Positions 3,814 through 54,048 of a DNA stretch of 64,000 nucleotides are shown here, one piece after another. The stretch covers positions 62,001-126,000 of the forward strand of contig NZ_ARXU01000010.1 of assembly GCF_000756655.1 (NCBI RefSeq). Direction: 5' to 3'. The first letter of the stretch is position 1, and each line of letters starts with the position of its first letter. A program made the translations under genes and the position numbers. A model generated the notes under the pieces. It did not search any database. It was not told where the DNA came from and worked only from the letters and a program-made list of their open reading frames with translations. The DNA is from Alcanivorax jadensis T9 (lineage in GTDB: Bacteria > Pseudomonadota > Gammaproteobacteria > Pseudomonadales > Alcanivoracaceae).

Positions 3814-4053
3814 AACGGCAATTGACAGTTGATAATTGATAGTTGGCAGCTAAAACCTGGTGCACGGGCAGTCTGCCCTTGTTCATTGTGTTGCATCAAC
3901 TATTAACTATTGGCCAATAACTACGCTATTATCGTCGGTTCCGGCAGCCTTGGGCTGCCGTTTTTTGTTTGGGACGCGTACAGACGGTGCTGTGATCAAC
4001 GGTCCGGTGCCCGTTATCAATTCTCCATTATCAATTATCAATTGCCTGTTATG
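3811..4053. repeat. AT-rich inverted-repeat element between hyuB and argD
   Basis: The segment between the two divergent start codons is bounded by inverted arms. CATAACGGCAATTGA (3811-3825) is mirrored, with one extra base, by TCAATTGCCTGTTATG (4038-4053), and both are followed inward by degenerate ATTGATAATTGATA units. The arms include the start codons themselves, so hyuB and argD share nearly the same SD-less leader. A rho-independent terminator lies inside. The layout matches the elements at 7281-7429 and 47195-47374. Confidence 0.6.
3942..3968 (+). terminator. Intrinsic terminator or attenuator upstream of argD
   Basis: The stem CGGCAGCC / GGCTGCCG (3942-3949 and 3953-3960) has a three-base loop and is followed by six T residues on the plus strand. 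No plus-strand gene lies upstream, so the terminator points at argD from about 85 bp away. A weak TTGCAT/TATTAT promoter-like region lies just before it (3891-3932). It could attenuate argD transcription or block stray transcription. Confidence 0.6.
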
Positions 4054-6237: not shown

Positions 6238-7287
6238 ATGAACCCGCCGCTGCTTACCCTCGACAACCTGGCCTGCGGCTACCATCAGCAGGCCGTGGTG
6301 AAGGATCTGAGCCTGGAACTGGCCGCCGGTGAAATCGCCTGCTTGCTAGGCCCCAGCGGCTGCGGCAAAACCACCACATTGCGCGCCATTGCCGGGCTGG
6401 AACCGGTCACTGGCGGCAGCATTCATATCCAGGGTCGTCAGGTCTCCAGCCGCAGCCGCCAGCTGCCACCGGAAAAACGCGGACTGGGTATGGTGTTCCA
6501 GGAACACGCCCTTTTCCCTCATCTGACTGTGGCCGACAACGTGGCCTTCGGGCTGCGCAAACAACCCCGCGAGCAACAGCGCCAGCGGGTCAGCGAATGC
6601 CTGGACCGGGTGCGCCTGTCTGGCATGGAAGACCGTTACCCCCATGAATTGTCCGGCGGCCAACAACAGCGGGTCGCACTGGCCCGGGCACTGGCACCCC
6701 GCCCCGCCTTGCTGTTGCTGGATGAACCCTTTGCCAGCCTGGACCTGGATCTTCGCCGGGCACTGGCTCGCGAGCTGGGCGACATTCTCCGCCAGGAAAA
6801 CGTCACCGCCCTTCTGGTCACCCACGATCAGGAAGAAGCCTTTGCCCTGGCAGACCGGGTAGGCGTGATGCGCCAGGGCCAACTGGAACAATGGGACACG
6901 CCGTATAACATTTACCACGCACCGGCCAACCGCTTCGTGGCGGAATTCGCCGGCTACGGTTCTTTTCTCCGTGGTGAGGTAGTGGATGACAACACAGTCA
7001 GAACCAGCCTGGGCGAACTCACCGGACGCAGCAATACGACCCTGACACCCGGAGGCAACGTCGATGTCCTGTTACGGCCGGAAGATGTGATCGCCGACGA
7101 AAGCGCACACCTGGCTCTGCCCGTCACCCGCCGCCAGTTCACCGGCGCCACCATTCTCTACCACCTGCGCGTCGGCGCCGCAGAAACCCTGCTCTGCCAG
7201 ACCGACAGCCACACCAATGTGGTGGAAGGCGACGCGCTGCATGTGCGACTGGCGACCAAGCACCTGGTAGCGTTTGAAGCTAATTGA
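6238..7287 (+). CDS. ABC transporter ATP-binding protein, FbpC/PotA-like, without permease neighbours
   Basis: This 349-residue ATPase would energise import of Fe(III) or a related small solute. It shows Walker A GPSGCGKTT (about residue 38), the signature LSGGQQQRVALARALA, Walker B LLLLDEPFASLD, the H-loop LLVTHDQEEAFALADR and a C-terminal TOBE-like region after FAGYGSF. The ATG at 6238 follows AGAAGG at suitable spacing, and the frame extends upstream only from a TTG. Neither a permease nor a binding protein is adjacent, so it must serve a transporter encoded elsewhere. Its TGA stop lies inside the left arm of the repeat at 7281. FbpC-like assignment is by overall similarity, and spermidine-type transport cannot be excluded. 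Confidence 0.85.
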   Translation: MNPPLLTLDNLACGYHQQAVVKDLSLELAAGEIACLLGPSGCGKTTTLRAIAGLEPVTGGSIHIQGRQVSSRSRQLPPEKRGLGMVFQEHALFPHLTVADNVAFGLRKQPREQQRQRVSECLDRVRLSGMEDRYPHELSGGQQQRVALARALAPRPALLLLDEPFASLDLDLRRALARELGDILRQENVTALLVTHDQEEAFALADRVGVMRQGQLEQWDTPYNIYHAPANRFVAEFAGYGSFLRGEVVDDNTVRTSLGELTGRSNTTLTPGGNVDVLLRPEDVIADESAHLALPVTRRQFTGATILYHLRVGAAETLLCQTDSHTNVVEGDALHVRLATKHLVAFEAN

Positions 7288-7429
7288 GAATGGATAATTG
7301 ATAACTGCGCGAAATGGCGTAGTTCAATCATTAAACGCAAGAGGCCGCGTTCCAAGTTTGGGCGCGGCCTCTTGCGTTTCAGAACCAGCAGGCTTTCCCC
7401 GCGAGTTATCAATTATCCATTCTCAATTA
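7281..7429. repeat. Perfect 26-bp inverted repeat enclosing a terminator
   Basis: The arms 7281-7306 and 7404-7429 are exact reverse complements over 26 bp, composed of AATTGAGAATGGATAATTG-like units. They enclose about 97 bp that hold a 17-bp-stem terminator. The left arm contains the stop codon of the ABC ATPase. The right arm ends eight bases before the stop codon of the convergent cyclase, so the element fills the whole intergenic gap. Its layout resembles the element at 3811-4053. Confidence 0.85.
7333..7379. terminator. Bidirectional intrinsic terminator
   Basis: A perfect 17-bp stem (7333-7349 and 7363-7379, AAACGCAAGAGGCCGCG and its complement) has a 13-base loop. It ends in TTT on the plus strand and, by symmetry, on the minus strand. 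It separates the convergent ABC ATPase and diguanylate cyclase genes. Confidence 0.8.
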
Positions 7430-7437
7430 TCAATTCC

Positions 7438-9842: not shown

Positions 9843-11333
9843 TTATTCACCAGCCGGGCTCTGGCAGACCCGTGCCACCGCCTCACGCCATCCCTGGTAG
9901 CGACGTTGGCGCTCCCCTTCTTCCAGTAGCGGCGTAAACTCCCGCTCGCAGCGCCACTGCTCAGCCACGGCATCCAGAGAGTCGTACAGACCCACGCCCA
10001 GACCCGCCAGATAGGCCGCCCCCAGCGCCGTGGTCTCGGTGACCATGGGCCGGTCCACGCAAACACCCAGCACATCCGCCAGGGTCTGGCTGAGCCAGTT
10101 ATTGACCACCATTCCACCATCCACCCGCAAGGTAGTGGGCCGGGTACCGCAGTCCGCTGCCATGGCATCCAGCAAGTCCCGGGACTGATAACACACCGCT
10201 TCCAGCCCCGCCGTTACCACCTCGGCAATACCGGTATCGCGGGTCAATCCCAACAAGGCGCCACGAGCGTGGGGGTCCCACCAGGGAGCACCGAGGCCGG
10301 TAAAGGCCGGCACCAGATAGACGCCACCGGCGGAACCGGCACGGCGTGCCAGCGCTTCGGTTTCGCTGGCATCACGGATCAGATTAAGGCCGTCGCGCAG
10401 CCATTGGATGGCTGCACCGGCCACGAAGATGGAGCCCTCCAGCGCATAGGTGGTTTTGCCGTTGAGCCGGTAACCCACGGTCGTGAGCAGGCGATTATGA
10501 GATTCCACTGCCTCACCGGTATTCATCACCATGAAGCAGCCGGTGCCATAGGTGCTTTTTACCATGCCCGGCTGAAAACAGGCCTGCCCTACCAGCGCCG
10601 CCTGCTGGTCCCCGGCAATGCCGGCCACTGGCACTGCTGCGCCCAACAGCTCGGGGCAGGTGGACCCGAATTCCCCGGCGCTGTCACGCACCTCCGGCAA
10701 CACCGCTGCGGGAATATCAAAGAGCTCCAGCAGTGCCGTATCCCAGACCTGCTCATGGATATTGAACAACAGGGTACGTGAAGCATTGGTGGCGTCGGTG
10801 GCATGCACCTTGCCACGGGTCAGCTGCCAGAGCAGCCAGCAGTCGATGGTGCCGAACGCCAGTTCCCCCGACTCGGCGCGCGGACGGGCGCCGGGCACAT
10901 TATCCAGCAGCCAGGCCAGTTTGGTGGCGGAAAAATACGGATCCAGCAACAGGCCGGTCTTGTTCCGCACCATGTCTTCATGGCCAGCATCCCGCAGACT
11001 CTGACATGCAGAGGCGGTGCGCCGGTCCTGCCAGACAATGGCCTTGGCAAGTGGATCCCCGGTCCTGCGGTCCCACAGCACGGTGGTTTCCCGCTGGTTG
11101 GTAATACCGATGGCAGCCAGCTGCCGGGCCTCTACCCGGGCGTTACGCAGAGCCTGCTGACACAGGGCCAGGGTATCGTTCCAGATCTCCATAGCATCGT
11201 GTTCCACCCAGCCATCATGGGGAAAATGCTGGCGGAACTCTTTCTGCGCCTGCCCACAGGCCCGGCCACTGCTGTCGAACACAATGGCGCGGGAACTAGT
11301 GGTGCCCTGGTCAATGGAAAGGATATATGACAT
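9843..11333 (-). CDS. glpK: Glycerol kinase
   Basis: This 496-residue FGGY-family kinase phosphorylates glycerol to glycerol 3-phosphate. The N-terminal phosphate loop is [18 protein letters not shown], followed by [39 protein letters not shown] and [19 protein letters not shown] are further signature regions. Length is normal and no frame damage was seen. glpF, glpD and glpR are not adjacent. The upstream region is 792 bp long and is filled mainly by repeat sequence. In a hydrocarbon degrader the enzyme would feed glycerol into lipid synthesis or central metabolism, but this role is inferred. Confidence 0.96.
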
Positions 11334-11741
11334 GGCTCAGCTAACCCTGTTATCAGTATTGGTGGCTGGATAGACAGACGCCTCTTGGGTGCGTCGAGAA
11401 CCGTATTTTACATGAAGCCCTGATGACAGATTGAACGATAACGGACAACCGGATAGACCTTATCGGCTATTTAGGAGCACTTGAACGGAGGGTGGATTAG
11501 CCGAAGGCGTAATCCACCCTACGATGCTGGTTGTCGACATCTGTTGCGCTTTGAAAGCCCTGATCGCCCTTCGGTCGATTTCCGCGCAAGCGCGGTTCGC
11601 CATGCAAGAATTTTATTCGCTTCGCTCACCCTTCGGGCCGCACGGAACTACGTGCGTTACTCCGCTACGCGCCGTTCCTACAGCGGCTTCGTAGAAATGA
11701 AGAGACACCGGGAACTTTCCACCCTTTCCCTATCCTACGAG
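11334..11741. other. Gene-free region with palindromes upstream of glpK
   Basis: No convincing gene is present. A palindrome with 11-bp arms (AGGGTGGATTA at 11489-11499, complement at 11510-11520) resembles intergenic repeats seen in many bacteria. After it come several short GC-rich palindromes, such as CCGCGCAAGCGCGG and GCACGGAACTACGTGC. An open frame of 90 codons across them is repeat-derived and is not called. The glpK promoter must lie near 11340-11450 but no clear -35/-10 pair was seen. Confidence 0.5.
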
Positions 11742-12127
11742 CGTAGCTCGTAGCTCGTAGCTCGTAGCTCGTAGCTCGTAGCTCGTAGCTCGTAGCTCGT
11801 AGCTCGTAGCTCGTAGCTCGTAGCTCGTAGCTCGTAGCTCGTAGCTCGTAGCTCGTAGCTCGTAGCTCGTAGCTCGTAGCTCGTAGCTCGTAGCTCGTAG
11901 CTCGTAGCTCGTAGCTCGTAGCTCGTAGCTCGTAGCTCGTAGCTCGTAGCTCGTAGCTCGTAGCTCGTAGCTCGTAGCTCGTAGCTCGTAGCTCGTAGCT
12001 CGTAGCTCGTAGCTCGTAGCTCGTAGCTCGTAGCTCGTAGCTCGTAGCTCGTAGCTCGTAGCTCGTAGCTCGTAGCTCGTAGCTCGTAGCTCGTAGCTCG
12101 TAGCTCGTAGCTCGTAGCTCGTAGCTC
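11742..12127. repeat. Perfect heptanucleotide tandem array (GTAGCTC)n, about 55 copies
   Basis: The 7-bp unit GTAGCTC (GAGCTAC on the minus strand) repeats without visible interruption for 386 bp, and the phase at every 60-base line is exactly as expected. At the distal end an inverted copy abuts it (CTACGAG at 11735-11741, directly followed by CGTAGCTC). At the other end the array contributes two bases of the TGA stop of the sensor kinase. Because seven is not a multiple of three, all plus-strand frames contain TAG. The minus strand has no stop in any frame and would read as the cyclic heptapeptide ELRATSY. Confidence 0.97.
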
Positions 12128-13742
12128 AGTTCACACGCCCCAGCACATGCTGGCCTTGCTGGCTACGCGGCAGGATGATGGTAAACCGGGCACCGCCCAT
12201 GGGGCTCTCGTCCACACGGATGTCACCACCATGCCAATCCACAATCCGTTTGACGATGGACAAGCCGAGGCCATAACCCCCGCTGGCGCGGTGGCGGCTC
12301 TTGTCCAGCCGGGCGAAGGGCTTAAACACTCGCTCCCGCTCATGCTCGGGAATGCCCGGGCCGTTATCATCAACATGAATAATGACCTGGTCTTCGTCGC
12401 CATCAACCACCATGACGATCTGTGAACCGGCGTAACGCAGGGCATTGGTGACCAGGTTCTGCAATACCCGGTGCAGGTAGCGCTCTTCCGCTTCCACTTC
12501 CAGGGTGGGCTGATCACAGTCCACGGTGATCACGGTGTCGCCGCGAATGGTTTCCAGCTCTTCGCGTAACTGTTCGCACAGCTCGCCCAGAAGCACCGGT
12601 TTGAATTCGATATTGGGGGTGCCCTGTTCCAGGCGGGCATAGGTAAGGATTTCGTCGATCAACTGATCCAGCTGCTCAATGTCATGATCCAGGGCATTGA
12701 GTTTTTCCCGGCGTAATTCCGCCGACTCAATATCCGCCAGCATCTCCAAACCAAAACGCAACCGCGCCACCGGGGTACGCAGTTCATGGCTCACCGCCCG
12801 GGTCATTTCCCGCTGGGATTCAATGAGGCGACGTATATGCGCTGTCATCCCATTAAAGGTGGCCGCCACCTGGCCAATGGCATCGTTACCTTCAATATTG
12901 GCATAGGCCCCCAAGTCACCGCTGCCCAGCTGACTCACCGCCTGGTCAAGCTGCTTGAGGCGGCGTTGCAGGGGGCTCACCTGCAGGTAGGTTGCCAATG
13001 CCACCGCCAACAGGCTGAGAATACCGGCCACCAGCAGCAGCTCGATAGGAAACTGGTCGAACAGACTAAGAGGCCCAATCACCAGCAATTTGCCAGTGTC
13101 TGCCACCGGCGCATAAATGCGGATGCTGGAGTCGCTGCGGGTGCTGTCATCCAGGCCGATCACCACTTCGCGGCGGTTAAGGCGCTGTTCCTGCTCCGGA
13201 TCCAGGGGTACATGGTCCCGGGACACCAGACTGAGGGGGTAACCGAAGTGCTGCTGGAGCCGCCCCAGGGCCAGCTCCCATTCGTCTTCGGGGAAGAGGG
13301 AAAGGTGGTTGAGCACCAGCACTGCAGTGGCCCGGGCCTGCTGCTCTGACACCTTGGTCATACGGGTGGTGATGTACTCCGGCTCACCAGGCAGCTGAAA
13401 AAGGATATCGGCATACCCTTTTTGCTCATTGAGGCGCATGACGACCAGGCCGTCTTCCAGGTGCAGGGTTTCCCGGTAGCCCAAATCCAGCTCTGCGGCA
13501 GACTGCAGCTGGATATCCGCATTGAACAGCTTGCTGAGCACCTGGCTCCAGCGGTCACGCTCACCGGGTTCATAGCGCTGGTACCCTTCCGCCATCAGGT
13601 AGAAGGTACCCCGCGCCATTTCTTCCCGGTAGATATCCGAGCGGTAGCTGTTAACCAGCTGTACGGCGGCATAGGTGATGGCGCCGATAAAACACAGCGC
13701 CAGCAGCAAGCCACCGTAGAGCCTCAGGAAAATACTATTCAA
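12126..13742 (-). CDS. Sensor histidine kinase, RstB-like
   Basis: This 538-residue membrane kinase has an N-terminal transmembrane segment (LLLALCFIGAITYAAV), a periplasmic sensor of about 200 residues and a second membrane segment near residue 240. A HAMP linker follows, then a HisKA domain with the phospho-accepting His in AVSHELRTPVARLRFGLEM. The HATPase domain has N-box NLVTNALRYA, G1 DDNGPGIP and G2 GYGLGLSIV. Layout and the HELRTP-VARLRF-LEM region resemble E. coli RstB. It follows its response regulator by 35 bp on the same strand. Its stop codon is partly built by the heptanucleotide array, and no conventional terminator follows. The signal is unknown. Confidence 0.92.
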   Translation of the reverse strand: MNSIFLRLYGGLLLALCFIGAITYAAVQLVNSYRSDIYREEMARGTFYLMAEGYQRYEPGERDRWSQVLSKLFNADIQLQSAAELDLGYRETLHLEDGLVVMRLNEQKGYADILFQLPGEPEYITTRMTKVSEQQARATAVLVLNHLSLFPEDEWELALGRLQQHFGYPLSLVSRDHVPLDPEQEQRLNRREVVIGLDDSTRSDSSIRIYAPVADTGKLLVIGPLSLFDQFPIELLLVAGILSLLAVALATYLQVSPLQRRLKQLDQAVSQLGSGDLGAYANIEGNDAIGQVAATFNGMTAHIRRLIESQREMTRAVSHELRTPVARLRFGLEMLADIESAELRREKLNALDHDIEQLDQLIDEILTYARLEQGTPNIEFKPVLLGELCEQLREELETIRGDTVITVDCDQPTLEVEAEERYLHRVLQNLVTNALRYAGSQIVMVVDGDEDQVIIHVDDNGPGIPEHERERVFKPFARLDKSRHRASGGYGLGLSIVKRIVDWHGGDIRVDESPMGGARFTIILPRSQQGQHVLGRVN

Positions 13743-53856: not shown

Positions 53857-53902
53857 TTAACTATCAAGGAAGCACCTATTCCAGAGCATTTCCAGAAAGG
53901 TC

Positions 53903-54017
53903 CCCTCTCCCTTGAGGGGAGAGGGACAGGGAGAGGGTGAGAGGCGCCAAGACTTGCTTGATGATCTGGCGTAATACCCCAGCTTCCTCCAACTCTTCTC
54001 TCACCAAGAGAGAAGAG
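53903..54017. repeat. Two hairpins between lipoprotein genes
   Basis: CCCTCTCCC-TTGAG-GGGAGAGGG (53903-53925) belongs to a type of palindrome common between genes in many bacteria. CTCTTCTCTC / GAGAGAAGAG (53993-54017) is a second stem just before the next start. Neither has a strong U-tract. Confidence 0.65.
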
Positions 54018-54048
54018 AGCCAAAAACTAGAAACCTTTGGGGAATACC

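Follow-up and report, generated by a model that had tools for sequence, protein, structure and literature searches.

A 55-unit heptanucleotide array beside a kinase gene of Alcanivorax jadensis T9 is probably an overgrown member of a dispersed gene-end repeat family

A sensor histidine kinase gene of Alcanivorax jadensis T9 ends directly at an array of 55 identical heptanucleotides, which raises the question of whether so striking a repeat concerns the gene beside it or has another origin. The locus lies in a stretch of 64,000 nucleotides (assembly GCF_000756655.1, contig NZ_ARXU01000010.1, positions 62,001 to 126,000), here called the window, whose numbering is used throughout. The array itself looks like an ordinary overgrown repeat and not like a part of the kinase protein. 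We consider it probable (roughly 0.75), from sequence comparison, that the array arose when slippage at replication expanded a short heptamer tract at the stop-proximal end of a dispersed gene-end module. Position, strand bias, differences in copy number, membership of a repeat family and coupling of paired arms are all directly observed. We do not ascribe a function to the copy number of 55 as such. The features at the array are the following.

11742-12127, minus strand: perfect heptamer array (GAGCTAC)55 in the sense direction of the kinase gene, a putative expanded stop-side tract (Tandem Repeats Finder (TRF) and pattern scan)
12126-13742, minus strand: gene for a sensor histidine kinase of 538 aa, listed with a TTG start; its TGA adjoins the array (open reading frame (ORF) list)
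11735-11741, minus strand: CTACGAG, the unit in inverted form, abutting the far end of the array (comparison with other copies of the element tail)
11545-11742, plus strand: dispersed composite element resembling repetitive extragenic palindromic (REP) sequences, with a tail (about 11670-11742) that runs directly into the array (BLAST matches)

TRF identified a single array in the window, at 11742-12127, with period 7, 55.1 copies, 100% matches and no indels, and so bears out an earlier note that had described 386 bp of GTAGCTC without error. GTAGCTC occurs 59 times in the window, as compared with 3.94 ± 1.71 times in shuffled sequences. Such head-to-tail 7-bp units of high identity are those of a heptanucleotide simple sequence repeat (SSR), or variable-number tandem repeat (VNTR). 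Because the T9 assembly consists of 29 contigs, the array's existence is more certain than its exact copy number. The inverted copy reported to abut the far end is present, as CTACGAG directly before the array; it is probably a chance substitution in the element tail, since most other tail copies read CCAACGAGC or CCAACCAGC at this position.

The kinase TGA is the complement of 12126-12128, and two bases of the first unit (12126-12127) do fall within it, as had been noted. Judged from the orthologous sequences, the array did not create this stop codon, and the earlier proposal that it helps to form the codon is not supported. Orthologues of the kinase occur in 17 of 17 genus genomes (T9 counted; the others are 80-96% identical), and all 17 have a stop codon at the end of the gene, with or without an array. 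In 10 of them the C-terminus reads ...RVN and is followed at once by TGA or TAA, so that the two shared bases appear to be incidental.

Downstream of the array, the spacer contains a separate palindrome and leads to a second gene, whose start is 408 bp from the array.

11486-11523, no strand assigned: palindrome CGGAGGGTGGATTA..TAATCCACCCTACG (inverted repeat)
9843-11333, minus strand: glpK-like glycerol kinase gene downstream of the spacer (ORF list; motif)

We call the latter glpK-like on the basis of the earlier note and of a characteristic N-terminal motif, and not of a family search. This motif (SIDQGTT or AIDQGTT) is found 3' of the kinase gene in 17 of 17 genus genomes, whatever the spacer between them. 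Within about 1.5 kb after the kinase stop, tandem GAGCTAC amounts to 55 units in T9 and 2 units in the genome designated G016, and the other 15 genomes have none. Of the recent expansion by slippage suggested previously, the lineage-specific expansion is thus upheld, and slippage would be its presumed cause. Inspection by eye reveals a degenerate AGYT-type heptamer tract directly after the kinase stop in T9 and eight other genomes, and an inverted tract after a 96-bp core in the kinase spacers of G004, G006, G010 and G012. A palindrome resembling that at 11486-11523 also occurs in the G016 spacer.

Differences in copy number, the mark of a VNTR, recur between species at other orthologous sites. 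At a first such site (locus L012, T9 contig C3), T9, G003, G016, G015 and G011 have 46+2, 15, 0, 0 and 0 units, and at a second (L266, C7) they have 47, 4, 0, 0 and 0, as counted in 330 nt and with masked bases in the G011 stretch of the first site. At L012 the array is bounded by a TAA and a hairpin with a T run, both in T9 and in the one-contig genome G003, and the 47 units of L266 (from position 29899 of C7) lie between two terminator-like hairpins with T runs (all hairpins by eye). The third site (L014, C5:212633-213017) has a 28-bp higher-order array in T9, composed of three GAGCTAC and one GAGCGAC, and lacks tandem exact units in the other four genomes; its structure suggests growth by blocks of four units.

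These three are among at least 11 separate sites of GAGCTAC arrays in T9, where a two-unit pattern gives 220 matches and the reversed-word control none. Three-unit matches occur in 13 of the 17 genus genomes (again with no match to the reversed word in any genome); those without a match include G002, G005 and G013. Wide presence in the class can be rejected. An evenly drawn sample of the class contains a three-unit match in 1 of 274 genomes, T9 itself, although a five-unit scan of named genomes returned at least 113 stretches, among the matches listed from Halomonas, Salinicola, Chromohalobacter, Alcanivorax, Paraglaciecola, Shewanella and a few distant metagenome-assembled genomes. The distribution is therefore patchy. 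A scan of a viral collection gave one stretch, which lends no support to a phage origin.

The earlier note had proposed a search of related genomes for the unit next to stop codons. We evaluated 115 arrays of at least 4 units in 113 fetched loci, with gene borders assigned by a simple longest-ORF picker and not by a trained gene finder. In 36 of the 115 arrays the GAGCTAC run is preceded by a same-strand stop no more than 12 nt away, as against 6 with an opposite-strand stop within 12 nt of the other end (36 of 42, binomial p 2.8e-6, relatedness of loci ignored). Starts within the same distance are found on the opposite strand in 11 arrays and on the same strand in one. The bias is also present in the non-Alcanivorax loci among L021-L100 (19 sense and 4 antisense stops, 71 arrays, p 0.0026), and degenerate AGYTNNRAGYT matches after stops number 16 sense versus 4 antisense in T9 and 16 versus 10 in the 113 loci. 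GAGCTAC arrays are enriched immediately 3' of stops, in the sense orientation. In the 113 loci, once the query arrays are masked, strict period-7 runs occur 8 times after stops and 2 times before starts. Whole-spacer autocorrelation at lag 7 fails as a proof of stop-side preference in T9, with 0.280 after stops and 0.278 before starts (0.279 and 0.269 in the masked 113 loci).

The array's membership of a dispersed family of gene-end repeats is not visible from the 64-kb stretch alone. The 204 bases preceding it have 55 listed BLAST matches in the T9 genome, 30 of which were obtained as loci. Sixteen distinct element tails among the loci analysed lead into 0 to about 55 heptamers, with variant units, and in 8 of these 16 an opposite-strand gene stop lies at most 30 nt from the end of the array. 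The flanking element is multicopy and has REP-like palindromes (by eye); the array itself is not a short palindromic repeat. GAGCTAC arrays at some other sites adjoin terminator-like hairpins or have an inverted arm as partner.

Elsewhere in Alcanivorax, a GC-rich hairpin is flanked by two inverted arms, each a short tract of degenerate heptamers, and such modules often lie between convergent genes. The window contains one complete module of this type.

7282-7435, no strand assigned: second module, complete, with inverted AATTGAT-type arms and a GC hairpin, between convergent genes

Altogether, 50 modules of similar build were found in about 1.60 Mb of five genomes (nearer 1.60 than 1.62 Mb, because about 20 kb of G003 was counted twice, L220 with L241/L242), and some tracts lie in duplicated segments, with two identical modules in L217 and like tracts in L221 and L222. 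Their 100 arms include 55 with a stop at most 15 nt away and 5 with a start at that distance or less. Among spacers of at least 100 bp, a module is present in 25 of the 135 between convergent genes, 13 of the 337 between tandem genes and 3 of the 140 between divergent genes. Because these 50 modules were selected by inverted similarity, coupling of the arms was tested on 42 pairs of neighbouring tracts picked regardless of orientation (span 80-215 bp), 40 of which are inverted. An arm matches its own partner with a score of 19.95, versus 11.6 ± 1.1 for other arms of the same genome (0 of 2000 shuffles). The coupling persists within the AGTT type (22.4 versus 20.1; 0 of 2000 shuffles) and within a second type (20.1 versus 17.7; 47 of 2000). 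The 113 loci, which come from many genera (Alcanivorax among them), have 14 neighbouring tract pairs: 8 inverted, 2 direct and 4 undecided.

We propose that the array would have started as a short heptamer tract, the stop-proximal arm of such a module. Slippage at replication could then have expanded this stop-side arm, and its growth may have been tolerated in a 3'-untranslated region (3'-UTR). The module, hairpin and arms together, might act as a transcript 3'-end or terminator structure, or might spread in the manner of a miniature inverted-repeat transposable element (MITE).

Several observations weigh against this proposal. The evidence for expansion is comparative throughout, the opposite inverted arm is missing at the kinase-glpK locus in T9, and no intrinsic terminator was found in 11300-12200, so that a terminator role is not shown at this locus. 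By the simple gene picker, 79 of the 115 arrays do not lie within 12 nt of a sense stop; 13 of the 115 lack a gene on the relevant side in the sequence analysed, and 27 overlap a picked ORF. Strict period-7 runs in 400 kb of T9 occur 3 times after stops versus 5 times before starts. Finally, the 36:6 strand bias, the spread of heptamers in particular and the coupling of inverted arms would not be expected if neutral slippage were the only process.

The alternative that survives best is that the module is itself a mobile, MITE-like element with heptamer-array terminal inverted repeats, inserted beside stops by some transposase, and that the array is an overgrown terminus of it. We regard this as possible, and we lean against it. 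The abundance and similar build of the 50 modules agree with it, as do the inverted arms, CGCG border and shared core hairpin of 23 aligned modules (chosen from the 50 for their shared core). Terminal inverted repeats are a property of the paired-arm modules and not of the one-armed array at 11742-12127. In some sets of orthologous spacers the type of both arms differs jointly; in the module at 7282-7435 it is AATTGAT in T9 and CAGTKAA in G003, G015 and G016, and the core hairpin shows a compensating change. In G004 (L191), the core of the kinase-spacer module is inverted relative to the kinase and glpK, as compared with G006, G010 and G012. Of 10 module sites counted by eye as mapped in one relative or more, 3 are without the module in some of these relatives, as in an 18-bp spacer of G015, but the other 7 keep some module in every mapped relative. 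Some relatives have short module-free spacers, and no target-site duplication was defined. An autonomous element was also considered, but no transposase was recognized between matching arms in the stretches read, which were judged on ORF positions without a family search of the enclosed ORFs. Y1/RAYT-type transposases (Y1_Tnp above cut-off; RAYT, REP-associated tyrosine transposase) do not discriminate and were rejected as a determinant, because they occur in 16 of the 17 genus genomes, including G002, G005 and G013, three that lack a three-unit array.

It is unlikely that the array is a regulatory element of the kinase-glpK transcript acting at the RNA level, through 3'-UTR structure, decay or phase-variable expression. 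Such a role would accord with the sense-strand bias beside stops and with the related modules, whose arms and core together make up a palindrome with covariation (in the 23 aligned modules, both sides are changed in 14 of the 30 predicted pairs). However, 15 of the 17 genus genomes have no tandem in the kinase spacer, and the folding of (GAGCUAC)8 is not special, at rank 36 among the 90 heptamers with its composition and rank 426 among all 2340. The strong z-score of -8.37 for folding of the whole array was measured against shuffles that destroy its periodicity. The same ranks led us to reject special self-folding as a cause of expansion. GAGCTAC has no G run on either strand and is not a G-rich unit capable of forming a quadruplex. 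Searches for known RNA families at the gathering threshold, in five sources including the window, returned only a tRNA.

An artefact of assembly, whereby the length of the array is wrong or the array was collapsed or invented, is quite improbable. The 29 contigs of the T9 assembly would allow for it, and arrays stand at the very end of a contig in at least six draft loci (L023, L055, L059, L064, L070 and L076), to judge by the lengths of the pieces and of their contigs. Against this, long arrays are also found in the one-contig genome G003 (about 33 units in L208, besides the 15 units at the orthologous site), and the GAGCTAC unit occurs at many independent sites.

Readthrough of the kinase TGA into a tail of repeated heptapeptides, which the earlier note had raised, is compatible with the sequence, since the sense strand of the array has no stop in any frame and 131 codons follow in frame before the next stop (near the approximately 125 claimed), but it gained no positive evidence and is extremely improbable given the stop codon kept in all 17 orthologues, the 10 that end directly after ...RVN, and a long open tract that only T9 has among the 17 genomes. 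The idea that the repeat is a cassette of stops in all frames (7 being 1 modulo 3) was also rejected for this unit: GTAGCTC has stops in all three frames, but the favoured, sense orientation is GAGCTAC, which is open in all three.

The array and its relatives share properties with several known repeats. In the parts of PMC4692102 consulted, heptameric repeats of Xanthomonas and Nostoc (GGGAATC and GGGGA(T/C)T) are stop-proximal and lie on the sense strand. The GAGCTAC arrays resemble them in unit length, in proximity to stops (the present array overlaps a TGA, and 36 of 115 arrays are sense versus 6 antisense), in strand, and in a length that varies between relatives. Those units are G-rich and quadruplex-prone, unlike GAGCTAC, and paired inverted arms do not feature in the passages on them. 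Direct TAACTGA repeats of up to 43 copies, in Beggiatoaceae, Cyanobacteria and Bacteroidetes (PMC4679880, in part), are likewise heptamer arrays with a patchy distribution across distant taxa. Unlike GAGCTAC, they lie mostly just before start codons in the Beggiatoaceae genome, and their unit contains stop codons. Heptanucleotides were the commonest class of long SSRs in most genomes surveyed by Mrazek (2007), for which slippage was proposed (as cited in the sections consulted of PMC4679880 and PMC4692102); this was a general survey, and neither the GAGCTAC unit nor paired arms appear in what is cited of it. Tandem heptanucleotide arrays are also mentioned for Calothrix, a cyanobacterium (PMC4692102, in part). 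The flanking element is like REP/REPIN sequences (PMC3116915) in being multicopy and intergenic with REP-like palindromes (by eye); it differs in having a heptamer array as its terminal part. Families derived from heptamers are also mentioned in a survey of satellites in prokaryotes (PMC6749651, in part). Within the set of open-access PMC papers searched, no text contains CTCGTAGCTCGTAG, and none of the papers that our searches listed has a title or abstract start dealing with the GAGCTAC unit or with paired heptamer arms. The stop-side position is already known for the Xanthomonas GGGAATC repeats; the present family and its paired-arm modules look like a new form of stop-proximal heptamer repeat. 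The heptanucleotide repeats of Calothrix go by the name STRR.

These repeats touch on the questions of why bacterial tandem repeats favour 7-bp units and why these lie beside stop codons. The published account of the preference for 7 bp, in the portions consulted, is mainly a guess based on the polymerase footprint. Period 7 dominates in Alcanivorax: in 400 kb of each genome, it accounts for 17 of 33 tandem tracts in T9, 31 of 54 in G003 and 45 of 63 in G012 (lags 4-24), and the next commonest lag has 3, 6 and 4 tracts, respectively. Counts by lag depend on the tract rule. Under a stricter rule, 464 kb of T9 contain 8 tracts of period 7 and no more than 1 of each other period between 4 and 24, and the 113 loci without the query arrays contain 81 at 7, 26 at 14, 25 at 21 and 9 at 9.

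We tentatively suggest, while thinking it somewhat doubtful, that Alcanivorax has an undescribed gene-end module, present at approximately 15-67 per Mb in the stretches of five genomes, which consists of two inverted arms, each of about four degenerate heptamers, around a GC hairpin and often lies stop-to-stop between convergent genes. Its arms, kept as a unit and switching type together, might be maintained by a dedicated 7-bp-periodic copying or conversion, and runaway copying of one arm could yield 55-unit satellites. Coupled inverted arms, arm types that differ at the same site in close relatives, and copy numbers from 0 to 55 make the question testable, and Alcanivorax could serve to distinguish movement of the arms from conversion or slippage, and to test for an influence of the arms on transcript ends. 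For the reading of genomes, the locus is a caution that a striking perfect array beside a gene need not concern that gene.

Minor observations were made on other spacers. A single AATTGAT-type heptamer tract lies at 4014-4043. The spacer at 53857-54036 measures 180 bp in T9, 178 bp in G016, 26 bp in G003 and 20 bp in G015, an indel of about 154 bp. The G003 spacer orthologous to 3814-3909 is 353 bp long, compared with 85-96 bp in three relatives; this spacer has heptamer tracts, and its extra DNA has terminal inverted repeats (by eye) and is MITE-like.
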